NCBI GenBank assembly: GCA_015487985.1
Contig: WFOP01000066.1
Coordinates: 1-11,919 of the forward strand
DNA length: 11,919 bases
Origin: Hyphomicrobiales bacterium
GTDB taxonomy: Bacteria; Pseudomonadota; Alphaproteobacteria; Rhizobiales; Devosiaceae
Reading direction: 5' to 3'
In this document: piece after piece, positions 1-11,811 of the stretch
Position numbering within the stretch: the first letter of the stretch is position 1
Layout: the number at the start of each line of letters is the position of its first letter
Notes under the pieces: generated by a model
Databases searched by the model: none
Told to the model about the DNA's origin: nothing
What the model saw: the letters and a program-made list of their open reading frames with translations, nothing else
Made by a program: the position numbers and the translations under genes

Positions 1-1005
1 AAGCGCGAAGGTAAACACAAGGGCGACGACCAGAACCGCGCCCTTGACGAAATCTTGCGTGTAATAGGGCGCGTTCATCATCGTGAGGCCCTGAAGCAGA
101 ATGCCGATAAACAATGCGCCGATAATCGTGCCGAAAACATTGGGTTTGGCGGCCCCCAAAACTGCAAATCCAATGAGTGCGGCGGCCACGGAATCAAGAA
201 GAAGATTATTCCCCGAGGCAATATCACCACGCCCCAGCCGTGCAGCAAGCAAAATGCCGCCAATGGATGCCAGCACCCCTGAAATCATATAGGCCAGCAC
301 CTTGTAACGTTTGACGTTGGTGCCCGCCAGTTCAGCAGCGCGCTCGTTGGAGCCGATTGCATACATCAGTCGCCCGTGGCGCGTCAGTTCCATGAAAACC
401 CACACAAGCAGGCCAATAACCAACAACACCACCACCGAAACCGGGATGAGATTGTCGATAAAAAAATCGAATTTGTGGCGGCCAAGGTAAAGAAAGCCGG
501 GGGAGAATACCCCTTCGGTCACGCGACCGTCCGGCATCACCATACCGGTGGAAATAGAGCGCCCTTCCGTGGGGATGCGTTGCAAACCCACCAGCAGAAA
601 CATCATGCCAAGGGTTGCCAACAGATCCGGCACCTTCATTTTAACGATCAGCAACCCGTTCACCAGCCCGACCATGGCCCCCATTATCAGGCAAAAAATC
701 ACCGCCCATGCCGCACTCATCTCCCACACCACCATCACATAAGAAGACAGCATCAGCGCAGAGGTGGCGGTGGAGCCAATGGAAAGATCAAATCCATCCA
801 CAACGAGTGTGGCGGTAACTCCAAGGGCCAGAATTCCCGTGATTGCCACGGACTGAAAAATAAATACGGCGCTGAACGGGGTGGCAAAATTCTCCGTAGC
901 CAAACTGAAGAAAATCAGCATCGCGGCCATCAGGGCCAGAAATCCGTACTTGATCGCCAGTTCCATCAGCGTCAATCGCGCTCTTTTTTTAACTTCACCC
1001 TGCAT
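1..1005 (-). CDS. RbsC-type ABC sugar importer permease (3' end cut off)
   Basis: This is the inner-membrane permease of a CUT2/ribose-type ABC importer, working with the ATPase encoded just upstream. I read 335 residues from an ATG at 1003-1005 to the window edge with no stop. E. coli RbsC has about 320 residues, so only a short C-terminal tail is probably missing. The protein is very hydrophobic, with roughly eight to ten membrane segments. Family motifs are visible: GFDLSIGS at residues 71-78 (GIDLSVGS-like), the cytoplasmic coupling loop GSNERAAELAGTNVKRYK at 218-235, DSVAAALIG at 271-279, and a final helix after PYYTQDFVKGA. Its start overlaps the ATPase stop by 11 bases, so translation is probably coupled; I see no strong ribosome-binding site of its own. 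Specificity cannot be read from the permease; MTR or 5-deoxyribose is inferred from the divergent mtnKA genes. The substrate-binding protein is not in the window and may lie to the left. Confidence 0.92.
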   Translation of the reverse strand, partial: MQGEVKKRARLTLMELAIKYGFLALMAAMLIFFSLATENFATPFSAVFIFQSVAITGILALGVTATLVVDGFDLSIGSTATSALMLSSYVMVVWEMSAAWAVIFCLIMGAMVGLVNGLLIVKMKVPDLLATLGMMFLLVGLQRIPTEGRSISTGMVMPDGRVTEGVFSPGFLYLGRHKFDFFIDNLIPVSVVVLLVIGLLVWVFMELTRHGRLMYAIGSNERAAELAGTNVKRYKVLAYMISGVLASIGGILLAARLGRGDIASGNNLLLDSVAAALIGFAVLGAAKPNVFGTIIGALFIGILLQGLTMMNAPYYTQDFVKGAVLVVALVFTFAL

Positions 1006-2509
1006 TTAACTGTCTACTTTCACCGGCACCGGCCACCTGGGCCAGAACCATGTTCAAATTCAGGTTTTCATTTCTGTGTTCGCCCTTGATGGTGTGATCC
1101 ACCATCACCACGATCCGGTCTGCAATTTCCACCGCTTCATCCATTTCTGCCACCATTACAACTGTTGCCCGCCCCCTGGCAGTTTCCCGGATTTTGCTGC
1201 CAATGTCGCGCCTTGCCTGTATATCCACCCCCTGAAACGGTTCATCCAGCACCAGCAGATTGGCGGCTTCCGCCATCCAGCGCCCTACCATCACCTTTTG
1301 CTGGTTTCCCCCGGAAAGAGAACTGATATCATCCGTTTCATGCTGGCAGACAATCCCCAACTCATCCACCATCCGGCGTGTGGTTCTGGCTTCGCTTTGC
1401 GGATTCAGGAAACCGGACCAGGCATGTCTGCGGGTAAAAGGCAATGTAATATTTTTTGTAATATCAAACCCTTGAACGACCGCATTGCTGGCACGATCCT
1501 TTGGTGTCCGAAAGACCCCTGCCCTGATTGCGGCTGCCTGATTGGGCGGGTCATAGGGGGCGCCCCTCAACAACATCCGACCGGCCGCAGGTCGTTTTTG
1601 TCCATAAAGAACATCGGCCAGTTCTGATTTTCCGCTCCCCACCAGGCCGGTGACGGCCACAACCTCCCCGTCACAAAGGTCCAGTGAAAACGGCTCGCTA
1701 TCGTTCGTCAACGCCAGTTCCTGAAGTTGCAGAACAGGGGCACCGGCGGGGGGAATATCAATTTTCATTTCACTAATCGCGCGACCCAGCATTGCTTTTA
1801 CCGCCCCCTCATAATCCAGCGGGGCCTCTTCAAAAACACCGGAAATCCTGCCATCGCGCATGGAGACAATGCGATCGGCAATTCGCTTGATATCGGAACT
1901 GCGATGGGAAATATAAAGGATTGCCACCCCCTGATCCCGCAGGCGGTCAATCAAATCAAACAACCGACCCGCTTCCTTGGCGCTCAATGAAGAAGTCGGT
2001 TCATCCAGAATCAGCAACTTGGGTTCATGGGCCATGGCGCGGGCGATTGCCACCAGTTGGCGATCTGCCAGCCCCAGTTCCCCCACCATGCGACGCACAT
2101 CGACATCAAGTCCGATGGTGGCGGCCAGTTCACGCGCCTGCCCTCGTATTTTTTTCATATTCATAAAAAACCCGCGCCCATGGGCGAATTCATCCAGCAT
2201 CAGGTTGCTGGCCACATCCAGATCCGGCACAACGCCGTCATTGATATTCTGATGCACTGTCACCACACCGGCGCGAATCGCCTGTGCGGGGGAATCGGGC
2301 CTGAATGGTGATCCATAAAGACTTATCTGGCCCCCGTTGGCCTGATGCACTCCGCACAATATCTTTACCAGCGTGGATTTTCCGGCGCCATTGGCCCCCA
2401 TCAGGGCGGTCACCTGCCCCCTGGGCAATTCAAGGTCAATGCCGCGCAGCACATTATTGGCACCGAACGCCTTTGTGAGCCCCTGAATTTTGACAGCCTT
2501 GTCCTGCAC
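995..2509 (-). CDS. RbsA-type double ATPase of ABC sugar importer
   Basis: This is the cytoplasmic energising subunit of a ribose/CUT2-type importer. Its 504 residues hold two fused nucleotide-binding domains, the usual RbsA/MglA/XylG length and layout. Domain 1 has Walker A GANGAGKST (38-46), Walker B LLILDEP (165-171) and switch His202, but its signature is degenerate (LGLADRQ, 145-151). Domain 2 has Walker A GLVGSGKSE (288-296), a canonical signature LSGGNQQ (398-404) and Walker B LLVLDEP (418-424). As in RbsA relatives, domain 2 lacks a switch histidine (VAEMDEA). The start is GTG at 2507-2509: a GGAGGG site (2514-2519) lies four bases upstream, and an in-frame TAA follows further upstream, so no longer start exists. 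It is the first gene of a leftward operon with the permease and diverges from mtnK. Substrate assignment is by context only. Confidence 0.95.
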   Translation of the reverse strand: MQDKAVKIQGLTKAFGANNVLRGIDLELPRGQVTALMGANGAGKSTLVKILCGVHQANGGQISLYGSPFRPDSPAQAIRAGVVTVHQNINDGVVPDLDVASNLMLDEFAHGRGFFMNMKKIRGQARELAATIGLDVDVRRMVGELGLADRQLVAIARAMAHEPKLLILDEPTSSLSAKEAGRLFDLIDRLRDQGVAILYISHRSSDIKRIADRIVSMRDGRISGVFEEAPLDYEGAVKAMLGRAISEMKIDIPPAGAPVLQLQELALTNDSEPFSLDLCDGEVVAVTGLVGSGKSELADVLYGQKRPAAGRMLLRGAPYDPPNQAAAIRAGVFRTPKDRASNAVVQGFDITKNITLPFTRRHAWSGFLNPQSEARTTRRMVDELGIVCQHETDDISSLSGGNQQKVMVGRWMAEAANLLVLDEPFQGVDIQARRDIGSKIRETARGRATVVMVAEMDEAVEIADRIVVMVDHTIKGEHRNENLNLNMVLAQVAGAGESRQLNAG

Positions 2510-2552
2510 GTTTCCCTCCGGTTAAAACAGACTAACGAGACAAACTGTCCTT

Positions 2553-2570
2553 TGTCAACAATTATTGACA
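2553..2570. promoter_or_regulatory. Candidate operator and back-to-back -35 boxes between importer and mtnK
   Basis: The sequence TGTCAA-CAATTA-TTGACA is an 18-base near-perfect palindrome with one mismatched pair in the spacer. It lies in the 103-base divergent gap. Each arm, read outward, is also a consensus -35 box (TTGACA). On the + strand it is followed 17 bases later by a weak -10 (AAGATT, 2588-2593). On the - strand a weak TAGTCT lies about 18 bases downstream of the arm. A further direct half-site TTTGACT follows at 2571-2577. Related half-sites occur upstream of the SorC regulator and aldolase genes, so I infer a SorC-type operator covering both divergent promoters. The palindrome is seen; its role is inferred. 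Confidence 0.5.
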
Positions 2571-2602
2571 TTTGACTGTTATTGGCCAAGATTAGAAAAA
2601 AC

Positions 2603-2607
2603 GGAGG
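2603..2607 (+). promoter_or_regulatory. Ribosome-binding site that fixes the mtnK start
   Basis: GGAGG sits five bases before ATG 2613-2615. A longer in-frame reading could begin at TTG 2565, but that codon lies inside the palindrome and has no Shine-Dalgarno sequence, so the ATG is preferred. Confidence 0.8.
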
Positions 2608-2612
2608 ATGAA

Positions 2613-3869
2613 ATGGCGTTAAAATCTGATAACTACCGACCATTGACGGTTGAATCACTGCCGGAACGTCTTGGGAAAGTCGATGCGATTACTACCCTTC
2701 TGGGGGTCGATACAGGCACATGGGATTGCAAGGAGGTCGGGGACGGCAATCTCAACCTTGTCTTTATTGTCACCAGCGGGCGCGGGGCAATTATCGTCAA
2801 ACAGGCCCTGCCCTATGTGCGCCTGGTGGGGGATAGCTGGCCCCTGCCTCTCAAACGCGCGTTTTTTGAATATCACGCCCTGATCCGTCAGGCGGAACGG
2901 GCGCCGGGGATGGTGCCTGAGATTTATCATTTTGATGAAGAACAGGCGATTATTGCCATGGAGTTCTTTACTCCACACATCATCCTGCGGCACAAATTGA
3001 TGGCTCAGGAAAGGGTAAAAGGACTTGGGGAGGCCCTTGGCACCTTCCTTGCCCGCACACTTTTTCTCGGCTCGGATCTTTCAATGGATACCGCCAAAAG
3101 AAAACATGATGTGGCGCTGTTTGTTGAATCGGTTGAATTGAATGACATCACCGAAACGCTCATATTCAGCGATCCATATTTTGATGCCGAGCGCAATCAC
3201 CACACGCCGGGACTGGACCCGATTGTGGCGCGGTTGCGCGCTGATGTGGACCTCAAAGTAGAAGCGCATCACCTCAAGGCCAAATTTGCCAACAATGCCG
3301 AAACCATGTTGCACGGGGACTTCCACACCGGCTCTGTGATGGTAACCGAAAACGATACAAAAATCATTGATCCTGAATTCGTGCTGTATGGTCCCATGGG
3401 GTTTGATGTGGGCATGCTGCTGGGGAATTTCTGGATGGCCTATTTCGCCCAACCCGGGCACGGCAACAATGCTGACTATCAGGCATGGATTCTTGAAACC
3501 ATTGCCCGCATCTGGAATACGTTCGTCGCTGAGTTCAGCCATCTCTGGCGCACCGGGCGCACCGGCATCCTGTATGAAGAGGCCTTGTTCAAAGACCAGC
3601 AACTGGGTCTCGAACAGGCGTTGGGTCATCGTCTTTGTGCCATCTGGGAAGATGCGCTGGGTTTTGCCGGCGTCGAGATGATCCGGCGAACCCTCAGCCT
3701 TGCCCATATCGCTGAAAATGACATGATTGAAGACGAAGTCCTGCGCGCGCAATGCGAGGCGCGAGGTTTGGAACTCGGGCGGTTTCTTGTCGTCAATCGT
3801 GCCCGAATGGGGGACATTTCCCAGGTCAATGATCTGGCGCAACAAATCAACAAAGGGGCAACGTCATGA
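2613..3869 (+). CDS. mtnK: S-methyl-5-thioribose kinase
   Basis: This cytoplasmic enzyme phosphorylates 5-methylthioribose at C1 with ATP, giving methylthioribose 1-phosphate. MtnK-like kinases can also take 5-deoxyribose. The product has 418 residues, slightly longer than the roughly 400 of characterised MtnK. It has the aminoglycoside-phosphotransferase-like kinase fold: a glycine-rich nucleotide loop DGNLNLV (44-50), the conserved lysine in IVKQ (61-64), the catalytic loop HGDFHTG (234-240, Asp236) and the metal-binding IDPEF (252-256) followed by YGPMGFDVG, which is diagnostic for MtnK rather than other members of the superfamily. The stop overlaps the mtnA start in ATGA, so the two are co-translated. 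It diverges from a sugar importer, which suggests that MTR or a relative arrives from outside the cell rather than only from internal nucleosidase action. In-vivo substrate preference is not decidable here. Confidence 0.95.
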
Positions 3870-4966
3870 AAGTAGACGGCAAGCATTACCGTTCGATCTG
3901 GTTCAACCGGCAAACCGGCACAACTCAAATTATTGACCAGCGCTGGCTGCCCCACGATTTTGTTGTGGTCGATCTTGAGAGCCGCGCTGACTTTGCCGCT
4001 TCAATTTCCGACATGCTGGTGCGTGGTGCACCGCTGATCGGGGCCACCGCCGCTTTTGCCATGGCTGCCGAAATGAAACGGGACCCCTCAGATGCCAATC
4101 TTGATGCGGCGTGGGAGGAATTGCACGAAACCCGCCCCACAGCCATTAATCTGCGCTGGGCATTGAATGAAATGCGCGACCTGCTGCGCCCCCTTCAAGA
4201 ATCCGAACGCGCACAAGCTGCCCACAAACGGGCGCTGGAAATAAGCGAAGAAGATGTTGAAACCAACCGTATGATCGGTGTACACGGGTTGGAAATCATC
4301 CGCAGGATTGCCGCTGAGAAAAAACCCGGGGAGGTTGTAAACATTCTCACCCATTGCAATGCGGGCTGGCTGGCAACGGTGGATTGGGGCACCGCCACCT
4401 CCCCCATGTATCACGCTCAACTGGCGGGCATACCAATTCATATCTGGGTTGATGAAACCCGCCCCCGCAATCAGGGGGCGCTTCTGACAAGCTGGGAAAT
4501 GAACAGCCACGATATCCCGCACCATCTGATTGTTGATAATGCCGGGGGCCACCTGATGCAAAAGGGGCAGGTTGATCTGGTGATTGTGGGCACCGACCGC
4601 ACCACGGCCCATGGCGATGTATGCAATAAAATCGGCACTTATCTCAAGGCGCTGGCTGCCCACGACAACGATGTGCCATTCTATGTCGCCCTGCCCTCCC
4701 CCACCATTGACTGGACGGTGAAAGACGGGCTGAGGGAAATCCCCATTGAGGAGCGTGATGACAATGAGGTTACCCATGTGCAGGGCAAGCTGGCGGACGG
4801 CAGCGTTACTTCCGTGCAGATAAGCCCGGATGGGACACCGGGGGGCAATCCCGCTTTTGATGTGACGCCGCGCCGCCTTATTACAGGGCTGATTACCGAG
4901 CGGGGGGTCTGCGAGGCTTCGCCTGAAGGGTTGGCCGCAATGTTCCCCGAACACGTTATCAGATGA
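3866..4966 (+). CDS. mtnA: S-methyl-5-thioribose-1-phosphate isomerase
   Basis: This enzyme converts the aldose methylthioribose 1-phosphate to the ketose methylthioribulose 1-phosphate, the step before aldol cleavage; 5-deoxyribose 1-phosphate is an alternative substrate in related pathways. The 366 residues match the family length. MtnA/eIF2B-like motifs are present: RGAPLIG (53-59), [10 protein letters not shown] with the likely catalytic Cys164, ETRPRNQG (197-204), the catalytic Asp244 in [14 protein letters not shown] (250-259) and NPAFDVTP (328-335). In the usual ANGDVANKIGTY stretch it reads [12 protein letters not shown], so a histidine replaces the common asparagine. The start overlaps the mtnK stop by four bases. 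No convincing terminator follows before the convergent regulator gene. The related eIF2B alpha-type or ribose-1,5-bisphosphate isomerase families are less likely given the motifs and mtnK linkage. Confidence 0.95.
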
Positions 4967-5011
4967 CCGTGTAAACCCGTTGCCCGCCTGACATTCCCCT
5001 GTTTTGCATCA

Positions 5012-5069
5012 ACGACCTGTACCAAAAGCGATCCGTGCAAGGGCGGCCTGTGCCCAAAGCAACCTGTGC
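5012..5069. repeat. Degenerate 27-base direct repeat, period 31
   Basis: Bases 5012-5038 and 5043-5069 align at 20 of 27 positions, sharing the core CCTGT(A/G)CC(A/C)AAAGC. A further CCTGTGCC begins at 5063. It lies in the 112-base convergent gap between mtnA and the regulator gene, where no clear terminator hairpin is visible. Function is unknown; it may be a decayed duplication. Confidence 0.4.
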
Positions 5070-5078
5070 CATGGCATT

Positions 5079-6047
5079 TCAGCCCCCGGCCAACATGGCA
5101 CGGGCGGTTCCCGCACTGGTCACCACATGGGTGACATATCCCCCGGCGATGGCCGCCAGCATGGGTGTGACCTTGTCGTCTCCGTCAGAAACCAGCAATC
5201 CCATGTCCAGTCCCTGCAATTTTTCCAGCGTCACCCCGATCATGCGATCATCAAGCGGGCCGGGAATGGCCTTGCCGGCGGCATCGATGAAACGTCCGCA
5301 AAGCACGCCGGTGGCTCCCTGCCCCACATACCAGGCAAGATCCTGAGCGCTGGCCACACCGGAGCCGACAATATGACTGTCAGGATCACATGAACCGGCG
5401 GCAAAAATGGCTTTGTTACAGTGGCTTAGCGCCTCCAGTTGATTATGGATAATCGGTTCCTGACGCAAGCGCGCAGCAAGGGCGGGATCGCTCAATACGG
5501 CTGGGGCATGCAGATTGATACATTTCGCCCCGAGATTTTGCGCCATGTGGGCTGAGCAGATTTCTGCTGTAAAGCCATACGGCGTCGCCATGGAGCCAAC
5601 CAGTTGCGAGACGGTAATATCCTTTATGCACGTCTGATCCAGTGCTTCGGCCACTTCGTAAACCGTGCGCCCCCAAGCCACCCCCAGCCTGTCATCTGAT
5701 TCCAGAAGGCTTGGCAACCATTGTGCCGCGCCGCGTGCAACCCGAATAAGGGTATCTTCACCGGTTGAACCGTCGGGAACGACAAATGCCGCTTTCAAAC
5801 CGAAACGTTCGCGCAATTCTTCAGCAAGCCGGTGTCCGCTGAAAACCTCGGGGGCGAGACTGATCCGAATATACCCCATTTCCCGCGCTTCCTGCAGGTA
5901 GTTAACCACCGTGGCGCGCGACACATTCAGCCTTTTGGCAATTTCAGCCTGATTCAACCCGTCATGGTAGTACATCCACGCCGCCTCGATTACAACGCTC
6001 TCTCCGCTCACCTGTCCGGCGTTTCGCCTGCGGATCATACTGCCCAT
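5079..6047 (-). CDS. SorC/DeoR-family sugar-binding transcriptional regulator
   Basis: This is a DNA-binding regulator whose C-terminal domain resembles sugar-phosphate isomerases and binds a phosphorylated sugar effector. The 322 residues are typical for the SorC/LsrR/DeoR(Bsu) group. A helix-turn-helix lies at about residues 31-52 (LNQAEIAKRLNVSRATVVNY). The effector domain begins near residue 70 and carries the family pattern LGVAWGRTVYEVAEAL, CSAHMAQNLGA, SGVASAQDLAWYVGQGATGVLCGRFID and a C-terminal KVTPMLAAIAGGYVTHVVTS. The ATG start (6045-6047) has an AAAGGAG site five bases upstream. It diverges from the aldolase-dehydrogenase fusion and converges on mtnA, so its likely targets are its own promoter, the fusion gene and the importer/mtnK gap. 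A ketose 1-phosphate such as methylthioribulose 1-phosphate is a reasonable effector, but this is inference. Activator or repressor mode is not visible. Confidence 0.9.
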   Translation of the reverse strand: MGSMIRRRNAGQVSGESVVIEAAWMYYHDGLNQAEIAKRLNVSRATVVNYLQEAREMGYIRISLAPEVFSGHRLAEELRERFGLKAAFVVPDGSTGEDTLIRVARGAAQWLPSLLESDDRLGVAWGRTVYEVAEALDQTCIKDITVSQLVGSMATPYGFTAEICSAHMAQNLGAKCINLHAPAVLSDPALAARLRQEPIIHNQLEALSHCNKAIFAAGSCDPDSHIVGSGVASAQDLAWYVGQGATGVLCGRFIDAAGKAIPGPLDDRMIGVTLEKLQGLDMGLLVSDGDDKVTPMLAAIAGGYVTHVVTSAGTARAMLAGG

Positions 6048-6065
6048 GTCAACTCCTTTTGTTTA

Positions 6066-6094
6066 TTTGACACTAAGTACTGACTTTTGTCAAA
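6066..6094. promoter_or_regulatory. Candidate operator with overlapping face-to-face promoters
   Basis: TTTGACA (6066-6072) and TGTCAAA (6088-6094) form a perfect 7-base inverted repeat with a 15-base spacer, in the gap between the regulator and the aldolase fusion. On the + strand TTGACA (6067-6072) has a poor -10, TCAAAA, 17 bases on (6090-6095). On the - strand TTGACA (6093-6088) has TCAAAT 17 bases on (6070-6065). Each -35 thus overlaps the opposing -10, so the two promoters would exclude one another. A second possible + strand -10 is TAAAAT (6112-6117). The half-site matches that in the importer/mtnK gap. Confidence 0.45.
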
Positions 6095-6127
6095 AACTGT
6101 GCTTAAAGACATAAAATTTTCAAAACC

Positions 6128-6132
6128 GAGGG
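6128..6132 (+). promoter_or_regulatory. Ribosome-binding site of the aldolase fusion
   Basis: GAGGG lies nine bases before ATG 6142 but only three before the in-frame GTG 6136. Spacing therefore favours the ATG start. Confidence 0.55.
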
Positions 6133-6141
6133 TGTGTGGAT

Positions 6142-8208
6142 ATGGTCCTTAACAGATGGAATGATGCTGAGGCAAAAAAATTTATGGCGGCGGCCGGCGA
6201 TGATCCGGCAGACCGCGAATTGGCCCTGAGGGTTTACACGTCACGCCTGATCGGAAGCGACCTTAATCTGGTGCTGCATGGGGGGGGCAATACATCGTGC
6301 AAACTGGAACGGGCAGACATTTTCGGCAAGCCCGAGCGGGTGCTGCATGTCAAGGGCTCAGGCTGGGATCTGGGTGTAATCGAGGCGGCCGGTTTGCCCG
6401 GCGTACGCCTTGACCCGCTGCTTGAATTGCGTGCGCTGACAAAGCTGTCCGATGAAGACATGGTGAACCTGCAACGGGCCAACCTGCTGGACAGCGCCTC
6501 CCCCAATCCTTCGGTTGAAACTCTTTTGCATGCATTTCTGCCCCATAAATATGTTGACCATACCCATGCCTCGGCGATGCTGGCGTTGGCGGACCTGCCC
6601 AATGTGGAGGCCGTGGTCAAAGAAATTTTCGGGAACCGGCTGGTTTGTGTTCCCTTTATCATGCCCGGTTTTGAATTGGCCAGAGCCGCAGCGGATGTTT
6701 ACGATGCCAACCCGGAGGTCGAAGGGCTTATTCTGATAAACCATGGTCATTTTGCTTTTGGCGACAGTGCGCGCCAAAGCTATGATCGCCTGATTGCCCA
6801 CACCAACGAGGTGGAGGCATGGCTGGAAAAAACCAGCGGACAGGTGCCCGCACAGGCTGAGGGGTTTTCTGCGGACATGGAGGCGAAGGCGGCGGATATT
6901 CTTCCTGCGCTGCGTGGAATCATTGGGGCGCGCAATGCCAGGTTCACCGGCAATGAGGACTTCGCGATGCCCGTCATGAACCTGCGCACCGGCAGAAATG
7001 TGCAGGAGTTTCTCCGGCGTGACGATCTTGTGCCCCTCAGCCGGCGCGGGGTGGCAACGCCGGACCATGTTATTCGCACCAAGAATTATCCACTGCTCAT
7101 TACCAGTGAAATCTTGGCGGGGGGGCGCGCGGCAGTGGCGCGGGCGGTGGATGAATATATCAAGGAATATACAGAATATTTCACCACCAACAATGCACGT
7201 CTTGGAGGCGTCAAAACCATGTTGATGCCAACCCCCAATCTCGCGTGGATCGAGGGGGTTGGTGTTGTGGGCATCTCGGCCAATGCAAAGGCCGCTTCAG
7301 CGGCCAGCGATCTGGCGGCGCAAAATATGAACGTAATGACCAACGCGCAAGCATGCGGGGGCTTTCATCCCGTCAGCCCCGAACAGTTGTTTGACATGGA
7401 ATACTGGTCGCTGGAACAGGCCAAGCTGGGCAAAGGAAAACCACCTGCCATGCAGGGGCGAGTCGTGATGATTACCGGGGGTGGCGGGGCCATCGGATTG
7501 GCCACAGCACAATCTTTTGCCGCGCTGGGGGCTGATATTTTCATTGTTGAACTTGAACAGGGCGCACTGGATAATGCGCTAAAAACCCTTGGCGCAGGTC
7601 ACAGCGGCATCGTGATGGACATCACCGGACAGGGGGCGGCAGAAAGGGCAATCGATGCCTGTATCCGCTCCTTTGGCGGGCTTGATATTCTGGTTTCCAA
7701 CGCCGGAGCCGCCTGGAGCGGGGAGATGATCGAGTTGTCCGAGGAAACCTTGCGCAAAAGTTTTGAGCTGAATTTCTTCGCCCATCAGAGTTTTGCCAAA
7801 GCGGCGGCCAACCTGTTCAAAACGCAGGGGCGCGGCGGACAGATTTTATTCAATGTTTCAAAACAGGCGGTCAATCCGGGAAAGGGCTTTGGGGCCTATG
7901 GCCTGCCCAAGGCGGCGACATTTTTCCTGCTGCGCCAGTTGGCGCTGGAGTTGGGGCCTGAGGGTATTCGTGTCAACGGCGTCAATGCCGACCGTATCCG
8001 CTCGGGCCTGCTGGACGAAGATTTTGTTGCAAAACGCGCCAGAGCGCGTGGAATTGACGAAAAAACCTATATGGCGGGCAATCTGTTGCGCCGGGAAGTT
8101 GAAGCCAGACATGTGGGGGACGCGTTTCTGGCGCTGGCCCTTAGCGAACGCACAACCGCCCATGTCATGACGGTGGATGGGGGCAATATCGAAGCGGCCC
8201 TCAGGTAA
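6142..8208 (+). CDS. Bifunctional class II aldolase / short-chain dehydrogenase fusion (RhaD-like)
   Basis: This is a two-domain cytoplasmic enzyme of 688 residues. The N-terminal part (about 1-400) is a class II, metal-dependent sugar-phosphate aldolase: phosphate loop GGGNTS (47-52), proposed catalytic Glu126 in PSVETLLH, metal ligands His140 and His142 in DHTHASAM, and the third, His201, in NHGH. The C-terminal part (about 438-688) is a classical SDR: TGGGGAIG (445-452), NAG (520-522), Asn544, Ser573, Tyr586 and Lys590 (YGLPK) with Ser 13 residues before Tyr, and VDGGN (678-682). All key residues are intact. The layout matches the rhamnulose-1-phosphate aldolase/lactaldehyde dehydrogenase fusions. 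Linkage to mtnK and mtnA suggests instead that it cleaves methylthioribulose 1-phosphate (or 5-deoxyribulose 1-phosphate) to DHAP and (methylthio)acetaldehyde (or acetaldehyde), which the SDR half then oxidises or reduces. No isomerase or kinase for rhamnose is nearby. Domain calls are firm; substrate is inferred. Confidence 0.93.
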   Translation: MVLNRWNDAEAKKFMAAAGDDPADRELALRVYTSRLIGSDLNLVLHGGGNTSCKLERADIFGKPERVLHVKGSGWDLGVIEAAGLPGVRLDPLLELRALTKLSDEDMVNLQRANLLDSASPNPSVETLLHAFLPHKYVDHTHASAMLALADLPNVEAVVKEIFGNRLVCVPFIMPGFELARAAADVYDANPEVEGLILINHGHFAFGDSARQSYDRLIAHTNEVEAWLEKTSGQVPAQAEGFSADMEAKAADILPALRGIIGARNARFTGNEDFAMPVMNLRTGRNVQEFLRRDDLVPLSRRGVATPDHVIRTKNYPLLITSEILAGGRAAVARAVDEYIKEYTEYFTTNNARLGGVKTMLMPTPNLAWIEGVGVVGISANAKAASAASDLAAQNMNVMTNAQACGGFHPVSPEQLFDMEYWSLEQAKLGKGKPPAMQGRVVMITGGGGAIGLATAQSFAALGADIFIVELEQGALDNALKTLGAGHSGIVMDITGQGAAERAIDACIRSFGGLDILVSNAGAAWSGEMIELSEETLRKSFELNFFAHQSFAKAAANLFKTQGRGGQILFNVSKQAVNPGKGFGAYGLPKAATFFLLRQLALELGPEGIRVNGVNADRIRSGLLDEDFVAKRARARGIDEKTYMAGNLLRREVEARHVGDAFLALALSERTTAHVMTVDGGNIEAALR

Positions 8209-8267: not shown

Positions 8268-9440
8268 TTAGCTTGCGGGCATGCCCTGTTCGATGATTTT
8301 CACCCAATAGGAACAACCCGCCGGGATCAACTCATCGTTAAAGTCGTAGTCGGGATGGTGCAAGGTGGCCGTGTCGCCATTCCCCACAAACACAAAAGCA
8401 CCGGGACGCGCCTCCAGCATATAGGAGAAGTCCTCCCCCCCCATAACCGGTGGTGTGTCCGTATGAACCATGTCACCACCTGAAACATCTTCAGCAATTT
8501 TTGCTGCAAATTCGGTTTGTTTCTCATGGTTTTTGGTTACGGGATAGCCAAGATTATAGTCGATTTTTGCGGTTGCCCCAAACGCCTCAGCGGTGCTTTT
8601 TGCGATAGCCCTGACCCGCTCTTGTGCCATTTCACGCACTTCGGGGGTCAGGGAGCGGCAGGTGCCGCGAATTTCAACCCGCTGGGGAATGATATTGTAG
8701 GCCTTGCTCTCGGTTTCAAAGCTGGTGACAGAAAGAACCAGAGAGTCCAGCGGGTCGGTATTGCGCGAAACAACCGATTGCAAGGCCACAACGATATGGC
8801 TGGCAACCAGTGTCGTATCAATGCAGGCCTTGGGATTGGCCGCATGGCCACCCTTGCCTTCAACATGGATGGTGAACTGGTCAGTAGCGGCCATTAACGG
8901 GCCCACGCGCATGGCGAATTCGCCAACCTTGAGGCCGGGATAATTATGCATGCCATAGACTTCCTGAATGTCAAACCGTTCCATCATGCCATCGTCGACC
9001 ATTTCCTTGCCGCCGCCGCCGCCTTCTTCTGCGGGCTGAAAAATCACCACAGCCGTCCCGTCAAAATTGCGGGTTTCAGCCAGATAGGCGGCCGCCCCCA
9101 GCAACATGGCGGTGTGTCCGTCATGGCCGCAGGCATGCATCGCCCCTTCAATTTTGGAGGCGTGGGGCACCCCTGAAGTCTCCGTCATGGGCAGGGCATC
9201 CATATCCGCGCGCAGGCCTATAACCTTGCCCGAGCCGCCCTGCTTGCCTTTAATCACCCCGACCACGCCGGTTCGCCCGATGCCGGTAACCACTTCATCA
9301 CAGCCAAACTCGCGCAGCTTCTCAGCCACGAAAGCCGAGGTGCGGTGGGTATCGAACAGGATTTCAGGGTTTTCGTGCAAATCACGTCGCCAGGCGGTGA
9401 TATCCTTGTGCATTTCTGCAAAACGGTTTATTTTTGGCAT
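8268..9440 (-). CDS. M20D metallopeptidase / amidohydrolase (HipO-like)
   Basis: This is a metal-dependent hydrolase of the M20D group, which removes acyl groups from N-acyl amino acids (hippurate hydrolase, IAA-amino acid hydrolase, N-acetyl-diaminopimelate deacetylase). The 390 residues match the family. Visible motifs are RADMDALP (77-84), HACGHDGH (102-109, ligands Cys104 and His106), catalytic Glu138 and ligand Glu139 in PAEEGGGG, His165 in GMHNYP, the dimerisation-domain GKGGHAA (195-201), MGGEDF (333-338) and the final ligand in LHHPDYDF (His361 or His362). No signal peptide is seen, so it is cytoplasmic. The ATG start has a CGGAG site six bases upstream that lies inside the end of the preceding ArgE-like gene, one base away, indicating an operon. 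The exact acyl substrate cannot be told from sequence; context with the Dpp-like transporter suggests imported N-acylated or dipeptide compounds. Confidence 0.93.
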   Translation of the reverse strand: MPKINRFAEMHKDITAWRRDLHENPEILFDTHRTSAFVAEKLREFGCDEVVTGIGRTGVVGVIKGKQGGSGKVIGLRADMDALPMTETSGVPHASKIEGAMHACGHDGHTAMLLGAAAYLAETRNFDGTAVVIFQPAEEGGGGGKEMVDDGMMERFDIQEVYGMHNYPGLKVGEFAMRVGPLMAATDQFTIHVEGKGGHAANPKACIDTTLVASHIVVALQSVVSRNTDPLDSLVLSVTSFETESKAYNIIPQRVEIRGTCRSLTPEVREMAQERVRAIAKSTAEAFGATAKIDYNLGYPVTKNHEKQTEFAAKIAEDVSGGDMVHTDTPPVMGGEDFSYMLEARPGAFVFVGNGDTATLHHPDYDFNDELIPAGCSYWVKIIEQGMPAS

Positions 9441-9441
9441 G

Positions 9442-10623
9442 TCAGTCTCCGATTAGTTTGTGATGGCTCAACTTGGTAATAATCCGGCGGACAAACTCCG
9501 TTCCGCTCTGGAATTGCTCTCTGGTAATATATTCGTTGGGCTGGTGGGCCTGTTCTATAGAACCTGGGCCACAAACCACAACGGAATAATTTTTGCGCTG
9601 GAACTGGCCAGCCTCGGTACTATAAGAAACCACATGGGTGCCGTTGTCACCTGTGATTTGACGGGCCAGTGTTTCAGCAGAGCCGTTTTCTTCGGGGCAC
9701 AGCGCCGGAATCATGTCCCGCGCAACGATTTCAATGCCGGTTTCTGGGCTGATTTCATGCATTTGTGCTTCAACCTGTTCCGCAAAATCCCTGTAACGGC
9801 GGAACCAGTCCTCAGGATTTTGTGAAGGCGGGCATCTGATGTCACAGGAAAAACTGCAATCCCTGGCGGTGATATTCGTTGCTGATCCCCCTTTTATGGT
9901 CCCCACATGCAGGGTGGTGAATGGCGGCTCAAACATAGAATCAACCCCATTGGGGGTGCCGGCCTTGTTTTCTTCGAATCGGCAACGCAGCCATTCAATC
10001 AGCCTTGCCCCAACCATGACCGCCGACACCCCTTTGTGCATCAGGGAAGAATGCACCTCAAGCCCGCGAATATTCGTTGTAAAGCCCATTGAACCTTTAT
10101 GCCCGGTCACAACCTTCATCATGGATGGCTCCCCCACCACCACGACCGACGCCCTGGGCAGGGTTTCACGCATTTGAGAGATCATATGCGGCGCCCCAAG
10201 GCAGCCAATCTCCTCGTCGCAGGAAAGCGCTATCTGAATCGGGCGCTTGAGGTCGGCTTTTACCATTTGGGGAACCAGAGACAAAACGATGGCGTTGAAG
10301 CCTTTCATGTCGCAGGTACCCCGTCCAAAATATTTTCCGTTTTTTTCCACAACCAAAAACGGATCGGTGTCCCAGTTCTGCCCCTCCACCGGCACCACAT
10401 CCGTGTGACCTGAAAATATAACACCCCCCTCAATATCGGGACCGATATGGGCATAAAGGTTGGCCTTGGTGCCTGATTTATCATAAACCAAATGCGATTT
10501 TACCCCATATCCGGCCAGATATTTGCGAACAAATTCCACCAGTTCCAGATTGCTCCGGCTGGAGACAGTGGGGAATGCAATCAGCTTTTCCATCATCTGC
10601 AAGGCAGTAAATTTATTTGACAC
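9442..10623 (-). CDS. M20A metallopeptidase, acetylornithine deacetylase (ArgE)-like
   Basis: This is a zinc-dependent deacylase/peptidase of the ArgE/DapE group with 393 residues. Motifs are SGHTDVVPV (71-79, ligand His73 and Asp75), GRGTCDMKG (100-108, bridging Asp105), CDEEIGC (135-141, catalytic Glu137 and ligand Glu138), GEP (164-166, Glu165), EVHSS (189-193, His191) and GPGSIEQAHQPNEYI with the last ligand His360. The ArgE type is favoured by this C-terminal motif. The start is GTG (10621-10623) with AAAGGGGG four bases upstream; the next ATGs (residues 10 and 11) have no such site. It is followed one base later by the HipO-like gene and diverges from a Dpp-like transporter. This setting points to catabolism of imported N-acyl amino acids or peptides rather than arginine biosynthesis, so I leave the gene symbol blank. 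Confidence 0.92.
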   Translation of the reverse strand: MSNKFTALQMMEKLIAFPTVSSRSNLELVEFVRKYLAGYGVKSHLVYDKSGTKANLYAHIGPDIEGGVIFSGHTDVVPVEGQNWDTDPFLVVEKNGKYFGRGTCDMKGFNAIVLSLVPQMVKADLKRPIQIALSCDEEIGCLGAPHMISQMRETLPRASVVVVGEPSMMKVVTGHKGSMGFTTNIRGLEVHSSLMHKGVSAVMVGARLIEWLRCRFEENKAGTPNGVDSMFEPPFTTLHVGTIKGGSATNITARDCSFSCDIRCPPSQNPEDWFRRYRDFAEQVEAQMHEISPETGIEIVARDMIPALCPEENGSAETLARQITGDNGTHVVSYSTEAGQFQRKNYSVVVCGPGSIEQAHQPNEYITREQFQSGTEFVRRIITKLSHHKLIGD

Positions 10624-10672
10624 GCGGCCCCCTTTAAAACGGTCTAAGCTGAGACCAGCCTGAGCAAAAAAG

Positions 10673-10692
10673 CAAGAACCTTCAAGAACCTT
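10673..10692. repeat. Perfect tandem 10-base duplication upstream of the transporter operon
   Basis: CAAGAACCTT occurs twice head to tail, ending two bases (A and T) before the candidate -35 box TTGACC. Its place upstream of that -35 fits a regulator-binding site, but no known motif is recognised. Confidence 0.85.
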
Positions 10693-10693
10693 A

Positions 10694-10722
10694 TTGACCC
10701 TCGCGCGTGATTAAACCATGAT
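10694..10722 (+). promoter_or_regulatory. Candidate promoter for the Dpp-like operon
   Basis: TTGACC (10694-10699, 5 of 6 matches to the -35 consensus) and CATGAT (10717-10722, 4 of 6 to the -10 consensus) are 17 bases apart. Transcription would begin near 10729, inside the first 21-base tandem repeat, leaving a leader of about 75 bases before the ATG. Confidence 0.45.
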
Positions 10723-10761
10723 AGCCAATAATAAAACGGCGATAGCCAATAATAAAACGGC
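10720..10761. repeat. Perfect tandem 21-base duplication in the transporter leader
   Basis: Bases 10720-10740 and 10741-10761 are identical, head to tail with no spacer. The unit begins GATAGCCAATAATAAAA and ends CGGC. A small GC hairpin (CGGCG / CGCCG, 10761-10774, 4-base loop) starts at the last base of the second copy. The unit is close to two helical turns, so the copies would present the same face of the DNA. Confidence 0.95.
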
Positions 10762-10803
10762 GGCGGGACCGCCGACAAATAAATCCCTTGGGGAGGGAAC
10801 TGA

Positions 10804-11811
10804 ATGCAGGACGCGCGCGCCACAATTTTGGATGTGGCGAATTTGAAAACCGTGTTTAATACACGCGATGGCATGGTGCATGCGGTTAATGATGTGAGTT
10901 TTTCCCTGAAAGCAGGTGAATTACTTGGAATTGTGGGTGAGAGTGGTTCGGGCAAGTCCGTCACCATGATGTCCCTTCTCAAACTGCTGCCCTCTCCGCC
11001 AGCTGAAATCACCGATGGCGAAATCCGGTTTGACGGACGCGAATTGCGCGAAATTTCCGACGATGAACTGCGCAAGGTGCGCGGTGGCGAGATCGGTTTT
11101 ATCTTTCAGGACCCCATGACCTCGCTCAACCCGGTGTTTACGGTGGGCTTCCAGATTATGGAGCCGTTGCGCCTGCATATGGGGCTAAACAAGAAGGATG
11201 CACGCATACGGGCCGCCGAACTGCTCGAACTGGTGGGCATTCCGGATGCGGCCCCGAGATTGCGCGACTATCCACACCAGTTTTCCGGCGGCATGCGTCA
11301 GCGGGTGATGATTGCCATTGCACTGGCATGTGATCCCAAGGTGCTGATTGCAGATGAGCCGACAACCGCGCTGGACGTTACTATTCAGGCGCAGATTCTT
11401 GAACTGATCAAAGAGTTGCGGCACAAGCTGGGCATGGCGATTATCTGGATTACCCACGATCTGGGGGTGGTTGCTGAAATTGCCGACAGGGTCGCTGTAA
11501 TGTATGCGGGCCAGATTGTGGAACATGCTCAGGTTTCAGAGCTTTTTTCCAATCCCTTGCACCCCTATACCCGCGCACTTCTTGAAACCCTGCCCCGGAT
11601 GGGCGGCGAGCGGGCCCAGCGCCTTCGCTCCATTGATGGTCAGCCCCCGAATCTGGATCATGAACCGGTGTCGTGCGAATTTGCGCCGCGCTGCAAGCAT
11701 GTCATGAGCCGTTGCACACAGGAAAATCCAAAACGGATAGCGGTTAGCAAAGATCATGATGTGGCCTGCTGGTGGACACCTGGCCAGAAAGGGAGCGATA
11801 ATGATGGCTGA
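10804..11811 (+). CDS. Oligopeptide/dipeptide ABC transporter ATPase, DppD/OppD-like
   Basis: This is one of the two ATPases that drive a peptide-type (Dpp/Opp) ABC importer at the inner membrane. The 335 residues are typical for DppD/OppD. In order: Walker A GESGSGKS (45-52), Q-loop FQDPMTSLNP (101-110), signature FSGGMRQR (160-167), Walker B VLIADEP (180-186), D-loop ALD (189-191) and switch His218. The C-terminal oligopeptide domain has NPLHPYTRALLETLP (250-264) and a four-cysteine cluster (Cys291, Cys297, Cys304, Cys322), the pattern in this family linked to an iron-sulfur site. A GGAGGG site lies six bases before the ATG. The gene is first in a rightward operon and overlaps the next ATPase. 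It diverges from two M20 hydrolases, suggesting that transported peptides or acyl amino acids are their substrates. Permeases and binding protein are outside the window. Confidence 0.95.
   Translation: MQDARATILDVANLKTVFNTRDGMVHAVNDVSFSLKAGELLGIVGESGSGKSVTMMSLLKLLPSPPAEITDGEIRFDGRELREISDDELRKVRGGEIGFIFQDPMTSLNPVFTVGFQIMEPLRLHMGLNKKDARIRAAELLELVGIPDAAPRLRDYPHQFSGGMRQRVMIAIALACDPKVLIADEPTTALDVTIQAQILELIKELRHKLGMAIIWITHDLGVVAEIADRVAVMYAGQIVEHAQVSELFSNPLHPYTRALLETLPRMGGERAQRLRSIDGQPPNLDHEPVSCEFAPRCKHVMSRCTQENPKRIAVSKDHDVACWWTPGQKGSDNDG

Follow-up and report, generated by a model that had tools for sequence, protein, structure and literature searches.

A predicted importer, MtnK-MtnA and aldolase-dehydrogenase fusion cluster for scavenging of external 5-modified riboses in a Devosiaceae bacterium and its alphaproteobacterial relatives

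We analyzed a stretch of 11,919 bases from a Hyphomicrobiales bacterium of the family Devosiaceae (contig WFOP01000066.1; hereafter the window), which is one entire contig of a 2.07 Mb assembly bin that is 83% complete, so that absences in this bin alone carry little weight. The window holds a cluster of genes for the apparent import and breakdown of a 5-modified ribose. At its left end, on the minus strand, lie two parts of a CUT2-type ATP-binding cassette (ABC) importer. The first is an RbsC-like permease (1-1005; PF02653, 138 bits), whose 3' end is lost at the contig start and which matches the NCBIfam RbsC, GguB and AraH models, every one under its cut-off. The second is an RbsA-like ATPase with two ABC domains (995-2509; two PF00005 stretches, 163 bits), for which the top NCBIfam model, AraG, scores 398.5, below the cut-off of 689. 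The two genes overlap by 11 bases. Divergent from them across a 103-base spacer are mtnK, for 5-methylthioribose/5-deoxyribose kinase (2613-3869, plus strand; TIGR01767, 469.7 bits, cut-off 275), with GGAGG immediately 5' of it, and mtnA, for 5-methylthioribose-1-phosphate isomerase (3866-4966, plus strand; TIGR00512, 419.5 bits, cut-off 279), which overlaps mtnK by 4 bases. They are followed by a SorC-type regulator (5079-6047, minus strand; PF04198, 181.6 bits) and, divergent from it across 88 bases, by a gene for a class II aldolase fused to a short-chain dehydrogenase/reductase (SDR) (6136-8208, plus strand; NF006192, 862.8 bits, cut-off 639; start GTG at 6136 or ATG at 6142), so that the genes flanking the fusion are those of MtnK, MtnA, the importer and the regulator. 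Each divergent region contains a predicted operator: a palindrome GTCAA-N6-TTGAC with its flanks (2550-2574) between rbsA and mtnK, and TTGACA and TGTCAA half-sites, a putative second operator (6066-6095), between the regulator and the fusion. The family models thus confirm the gene order proposed in a first, sequence-only reading of this DNA; the regulator that it had placed beside mtnKA is correctly identified but lies on the opposite strand.

That reading had also described the cluster as self-contained, which holds for the gene set but not for the contig, where the importer is incomplete and a binding protein gene is lacking. The last 155 residues of a binding protein are found at the end of another contig of the same bin (C108), and they are 92-93% identical to the protein of a related locus, L002. 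The assembly therefore breaks within the binding protein gene, and the genome's own version of the locus reads binding protein-permease-ATPase / mtnK-mtnA / regulator / fusion. On C108, a transporter-like gene (major facilitator type by eye) adjoins the binding-protein fragment and reads toward it. The full-length sister binding protein has as its top match in the PDB 4ry8, a 5-methylthioribose (MTR)-binding protein, and the second-best match is 5ulb, a Yersinia sugar-binding protein. In a set of 48 genomes, consisting of 47 chosen via the fusion gene and the window's own, the binding protein occurs in 23 of the 24 genomes with mtnK over its cut-off and in none of the remaining 24, although a partial mtnK is present in G006 among these. 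These comparisons support the proposed uptake of an MTR-type sugar from outside by a dedicated importer.

The binding protein also appears to favor MTR over 5-deoxyribose as the main substrate. In the opposite case, 5-deoxyribose, a waste product of radical SAM enzymes, would be the main substrate, its products dihydroxyacetone phosphate (DHAP) and acetate would provide carbon and energy, and MTR would be a side substrate. Several published observations are compatible with this: the kinase of Bacillus thuringiensis accepts both sugars (PMC6079011), the E. coli pathway handles both (PMC12632272), and 5-deoxyribose is reported to be excreted by Synechococcus elongatus (PMC8102628); moreover, acetate can enter metabolism. 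However, the closest match of the sister binding protein is to an MTR-binding protein, and we regard a leading role of 5-deoxyribose as possible but rather unlikely.

The window's MtnK and MtnA are 43% and 61% identical, respectively, to their counterparts in E. coli EcN. Kinase, isomerase and an aldolase, that is, MtnK or MtnP, MtnA, and Ald2 or DrdA, make up the DHAP shunt described for E. coli, Rhodospirillum rubrum, Rhodopseudomonas palustris and B. thuringiensis (PMC10986504, PMC12632272, PMC5893883, PMC6079011). With kinase and isomerase over their cut-offs and a regulator related to E. coli MtnR, the comparison supports the DHAP-shunt-like chemistry suggested by the sequence-only reading. 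Both mtnK and mtnA are methionine salvage genes, and the cluster could in principle serve ordinary internal salvage, with the importer just recovering leaked MTR. In five related loci (L037, L039, L040, L041 and L050) mtnA and the fusion do follow a methylthioadenosine (MTA) phosphorylase gene, and none of these loci contains a match to the window's importer; with NF006492 (cut-off 437) the phosphorylase of L039 reaches 514. This reading is very unlikely, however, in view of the co-occurrence of mtnK with the binding protein and of the results for two other enzymes. Acireductone dioxygenase (MtnD, PF03079) was found in none of the 48 genomes, the window's 83% complete bin included, in a search that was positive in 5 of 14 control genomes. 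MTA nucleosidase exceeds its cut-off in none of the 24 mtnK genomes, and therefore no clear internal source of free MTR is seen. Both results agree with the earlier suggestion that the locus is not one of plain methionine salvage.

In the fusion, the aldolase domain (PF00596, residues 34-223) and the SDR domain (PF00106, residues 442-624) are read in a single frame. Residues H142, H144, H203, N522, A523, G524, S575, Y588 and K592, which we take to be the aldolase histidines and the SDR residues, are strongly conserved: of the 85 aligned rows that remained once short ones had been removed from 88, either 84 or 85 carry each residue. The same two-domain architecture is found in RhaEW, which combines rhamnulose-phosphate aldolase with lactaldehyde dehydrogenase (PMC3870299), and the fusion could accordingly be RhaEW of a rhamnose-type pathway with incidental neighbors. 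It is 33% identical over its full length to a RhaEW-like homologue (L107) from a genome of the same family, whose neighbors by eye (a DeoR-type regulator, a sugar-binding protein and an isomerase-like gene) form a rhamnose-type locus. In contrast, the window's fusion scores 437.4 with the RhaEW model TIGR02632 (RhaD_aldol-ADH), under the equivalog cut-off of 567.75, and falls on a separate branch of the fusion tree; its linkage is to mtnA rather than to rhamnose genes, the nine genes of the window include neither a rhamnose isomerase nor a rhamnose kinase, and in two relatives (L014 and L016) the fusion gene is preceded by the type of palindrome that it shares with mtnK. On the family cut-off, the neighbors and the tree we reject the RhaEW assignment, whose probability we put at next to nothing.

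RhaEW is nevertheless the characterized enzyme with this architecture. Chloroflexus RhaEW with NAD+ is reported to yield DHAP and lactate, to show no activity with NADH, and to give no detectable products without NAD+ (PMC3870299). By analogy with this oxidation we infer an oxidative DHAP shunt for the fusion, and consider an oxidative SDR step moderately probable. SDRs can run in both directions, and in an otherwise identical system the SDR might reduce the aldehyde to 2-(methylthio)ethanol or ethanol, the fusion just preventing aldehyde leakage. The shunt aldehyde is indeed reported to end as an alcohol in R. palustris (PMC5893883) and, from acetaldehyde to ethanol, in aerobic E. coli (PMC10986504). 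The inactivity of RhaEW with NADH (PMC3870299) argues against this direction, which we regard as doubtful.

Across its full length (323 positions), the regulator shares 35% identity with E. coli YjhU (E 2e-73), and PF04198 is present in both. YjhU is MtnR, the repressor of the E. coli DHAP shunt (PMC12632272). The palindrome GTCAA-N5/6-TTGAC was observed in all 17 rbsA-mtnK divergent regions that could be delimited. In 1.41 Mb of loci, with two loci repeating a site removed, it occurs 28 times, compared with 0-7 times (mean 1.7) in ten approximate first-order shuffles, and 25 of the 28 sites precede rbsA/mtnK, mtnA, fusion or transketolase genes. At least one TTGACA or TGTCAA hexamer is present in 18 of 22 regions between regulator and fusion. 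The palindrome also lies before the importer and mtnK in all six named-plasmid loci of that layout that were read (L102, L104, L106, L125, L126 and L131) and in Sinorhizobium meliloti 1021, and in Ponticoccus alexandrii it is flanked by the genes for a BMP-type binding protein and a phosphorylase. The pairing of regulator and palindrome constitutes a predicted MtnR-like regulon in Alphaproteobacteria. Upstream of mtnK in E. coli EcN, TTGTCACATGACAA has TGTCA half-sites in common with the alphaproteobacterial operator and is a possible MtnR site. On the Mariluticola plasmid (L102), a gene annotated as class D beta-lactamase (4785-5588) lies directly upstream of the regulator.

To place the cluster in a wider context, we scanned GTDB genomes for the fusion and retained 80 loci, the best of 111. 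In 49 of the 80, mtnA is no more than 5 kb away from the fusion; the same is true of 31 of the 49 loci that have at least 3 kb on both sides. Broken down by identity to the window's fusion, the latter count comprises 22 of 24 loci at 55% or more, 2 of 7 at 45-55%, and 7 of 18 below 45%. The full order, including the binding protein, recurs in Rhodobacterales (for example in L002, L008, L011, L013, L018, L019, L021, L025, L027 and L031), and a plasmid of Shinella sp. H4-D48 carries exactly the window's gene set in a different arrangement. In 61 genomes chosen by kinship and not by the fusion, mtnA (match at E up to 1e-30) is present in all nine that have a fusion ortholog (>700 bits; in two pieces in G053) and in 13 that have no such ortholog, and it is absent from the other 39. 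The Fisher probability of this co-occurrence is 2.9e-5, or 2.2e-4 if a partial match with an internal stop in G055 is counted, values that kinship among the genomes makes optimistic. With the order recurring in Rhodobacterales metagenome-assembled genomes (MAGs) and isolates, the genes present on Rhizobiales plasmids, and the catalytic residues kept, the arrangement exceeds chance. Linkage of mtnKA with importer and fusion across Alphaproteobacteria, as anticipated in the sequence-only reading, is therefore supported by the close relatives. In ten betaproteobacterial loci (L056, L062, L066, L067, L068, L073, L074, L075, L080 and L081), most of them with mtnA behind the fusion, a conserved gene lies directly before it; the L073 member matches TANGO2 (PF05742).

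We infer from these comparisons that the cluster would mediate substrate-induced scavenging of external 5-modified riboses, chiefly MTR and probably also 5-deoxyribose. The periplasmic binding protein encoded on the neighboring contig would, with the permease and the ATPase, import the free sugar. MtnK would then phosphorylate C1, and MtnA would isomerize the product to 5-(methylthio)ribulose-1-phosphate, which the aldolase domain of the fusion would split into DHAP and (methylthio)acetaldehyde. The fused SDR domain would most likely use NAD+ to oxidize the aldehyde, yielding (methylthio)acetate or acetate and completing an oxidative DHAP shunt. The MtnR-like SorC repressor would control both divergent promoters through the TTGACA/TGTCAA operators and would presumably be released by a phosphorylated intermediate. 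We assign this proposal as a whole a probability of roughly three in four.

Several observations weigh against it. The 48-genome set, drawn from 47 of the 80 loci, was picked by the authors and is mostly alphaproteobacterial and related, so that p-values based on it are optimistic. Linkage is incomplete: of the 25 sufficiently flanked loci whose fusion is under 55% identical, only 9 have mtnA nearby, and in the 22 kb read of S. meliloti 1021 pSymB (L127) the importer, SorC regulator, mtnK, mtnA and palindrome occur without a match to the fusion. The close relatives are thus linked, while S. meliloti 1021 and distant loci include cases in which mtnKA and the fusion are not. Three of the 28 palindromes lie elsewhere, and 4 of 22 regions between regulator and fusion are without the hexamers. 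The fusion falls under the RhaEW cut-off, and therefore its direction and substrate could differ from those of RhaEW. In R. palustris an alcohol is formed from the aldehyde (PMC5893883). BLAST at E up to 1 did not match the fusion to Ald2, which in E. coli EcN is encoded next to mtnKA: the function appears DHAP-shunt-like, but the aldolase belongs to another subfamily. Finally, MTA nucleosidase matches at E up to 0.001 occur in 35 of the 48 genomes, all but two below the cut-off (in the window's genome 54.6 bits against 73.8), and the wider phosphorylase superfamily is present in all 48; a divergent nucleosidase could therefore exist.

The distribution of the cluster suggests an origin by transfer. 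In the fusion tree (a quick method with SH-aLRT support, which gave long-branch warnings), the window is nested with Rhodobacteraceae MAGs in a set of six, while its genus-mate G052 belongs to a set of four that also comprises two Hyphomicrobiales MAGs and one of Marinosulfonomonas. Only three of the seven listed genomes of the genus have mtnA (the window's own, G052 and G053). The tetranucleotide profile of the window correlates with that of its bin at 0.96, within the range of seven other contigs of the bin (0.88-0.96), compared with 0.86 for L002. We reject mis-binning, since the composition fits the bin and C108 of the same bin holds the binding-protein tail, and for the same reasons transfer is likelier than contamination. 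From the patchy occurrence in the genus (G048-G053) and the tree position, horizontal transfer between orders is likely. The remainder of the window (8268-11811) contains two M20 peptidase-family genes, one of which exceeds the acetylornithine deacetylase cut-off, and a Dpp-type ATPase, with no tie to the cluster seen; an Rfam scan of the window gave no match above the gathering score.

In some relatives the same predicted regulon appears to include further enzymes. A RuBisCO-like protein is found at >300 bits in 12 of the 48 genomes, and in 10 of these, all Rhodobacterales, it is accompanied by two transketolase halves; the trio shares a contig with mtnA and the fusion in eight, and is separated from them by contig ends in the other two (G028 and G029). 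In the window's genome (83% complete) there is no RuBisCO-like match at E up to 0.001, and the 11.8 kb of C108 that were read contain neither a RuBisCO-like nor a transketolase match, on which grounds we reject this module as part of the window's locus. The RuBisCO-like and transketolase genes lie behind the importer genes on the same strand in L017, L025, L027, L033 and L097. In Phaeovulum veldkampii (L030), where MtnK and the binding protein were not found, the trio diverges from mtnA across the palindrome, which also directly precedes these genes in L098 and L099 (none was found in L100). The order mtnK, mtnA, transketolase N, transketolase C, RuBisCO-like is seen in Mariluticola, Shinella WSC3-e, Ensifer adhaerens, Rhizobium rosettiformans and Pararhizobium. 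The RuBisCO-like protein was matched at E up to 1e-40 in 24 plasmid records, several of which come from closely related strains, and in 22 of them its gene adjoins that of transketolase C. The other two are from Shinella zoogloeoides and from Terrarubrum; in the latter a cupin gene comes next, as in the MTA-isoprenoid shunt. RuBisCO-like and split transketolase genes beside the importer, mtnK or mtnA were also noted in L102, L104, L106, L125 and L126, and no cupin is among the annotated neighbors in L102, L106, L125 or L126, the loci searched for one.

The RuBisCO-like protein has as its top PDB match 3qfw (207 bits), presumably R. palustris RLP1. RLP1 isomerizes methylthioribulose-1-phosphate to 1-(methylthio)xylulose-5-phosphate (PMC5893883). 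The RuBisCO-like protein of the relatives would likewise turn the ketose-1-phosphate into 1-(methylthio)xylulose-5-phosphate. The split transketolase, a thiamine enzyme, would then give glyceraldehyde-3-phosphate and a methylthio-enamine that would expel methanethiol and leave an acetyl unit, acting as a "methylthio-phosphoketolase"; comparable thiamine chemistry is familiar from phosphoketolase and sulfoacetaldehyde acetyltransferase. We suggest, tentatively, that the regulon is modular in how (methylthio)ribulose-1-phosphate is processed further, and that the RuBisCO-like/transketolase pair represents an undescribed oxygen-independent, cupin-free route that leads from a waste sugar to methanethiol. 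Other loci argue against a single fixed role. In Vibrio nigripulchritudo (L123) the trio accompanies an FGGY kinase, with no mtnA in the stretch read. In Paracoccus seriniphilus (L128) and Marinovum algicola (L129) the transketolase pair occurs with no RuBisCO-like match in the stretches read, near an FGGY or xylulose-type kinase, a molybdopterin-type oxidoreductase and a class II aldolase-type gene. In two uncultured Alphaproteobacteria (L043 and L044) the fusion is followed by split transketolase and RuBisCO-like genes with no mtnKA match; a PfkB kinase, Gfo/Idh-type genes and an isomerase-like TIM-barrel gene are also present, and the trio may serve another sugar there. On the P. alexandrii plasmid (L103, 3428-13131), mtnA is accompanied by genes for a BMP-type importer, a phosphorylase, an amidohydrolase and a molybdopterin oxidoreductase and by split transketolase and RuBisCO-like genes, and position 4532 has an operator-like palindrome; this locus looks like a nucleoside-importing version, with no fusion in the stretch read.

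It is instructive to compare the cluster with known systems. It resembles the published DHAP shunts in its kinase and isomerase, in a third enzyme with a class II aldolase superfamily domain, in its SorC/MtnR-type regulator and, for some of the published clusters, in sugar transporter genes alongside; it differs in the SDR-fused aldolase unmatched to EcN Ald2, in an ABC importer in place of the GRP-family transporter of EcN, and in a probably oxidative end product (PMC10986504, PMC12632272, PMC5893883, PMC6079011). The ABC transporter MtrACB, predicted for MTR beside mtnK in Bacillus cereus and gammaproteobacteria (PMC3228920), is likewise a sugar-type importer accompanying mtnK-mtnA, but is reported with an S-box or metboxes and mtnBCD, whereas here there are an MtnR-like regulator and the fusion and no acireductone dioxygenase. 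MtrA (YfnA), the MTR influx transporter of Bacillus subtilis (PMC5743806), shares the dedicated MTR uptake but is described as a single named gene and not a CUT2 ABC importer. The MTA-isoprenoid shunt comprises MtnP, MtnA, the DeepYkr RuBisCO-like protein and a cupin (PMC5893883); a RuBisCO-like protein is carried by relatives of the window's genome and not by that genome in any detected form, and a relative of this protein stands beside a cupin in Terrarubrum, but in the relatives of the window's genome its neighbor is a split transketolase. A predicted MTR importer beside mtnK, a reported B. subtilis MTR transporter, DHAP shunts with a nearby transporter gene, and the MtnR repressor are thus already known from these sources. 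New within the open-licence literature searched, where none of the papers listed dealt with the fusion in this role or with the RuBisCO-like/transketolase/mtnA combination, and which cannot prove their absence from print, are the fusion as probable cleaving enzyme, the predicted alphaproteobacterial MtnR-like regulon, and the possible RuBisCO-like/transketolase branch in relatives.

S. meliloti 1021 and Shinella sp. H4-D48 make the system open to testing now. If the fusion oxidizes the aldehyde, it would bypass the formation of ethanol, a reported dead end in aerobic E. coli. If the RuBisCO-like/transketolase variant operates as suggested, it would add a source of methanethiol, a key sulfur-cycle compound, and would give these RuBisCO-like proteins a partner besides the cupin. 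MTR and 5-deoxyribose arise from the waste of polyamine, quorum-signal and radical SAM chemistry and are excreted by some cells; in Alphaproteobacteria of sea and soil, a regulated importer coupled to a catabolic enzyme of its own would turn both sugars into a traded source of carbon, and perhaps of sulfur.

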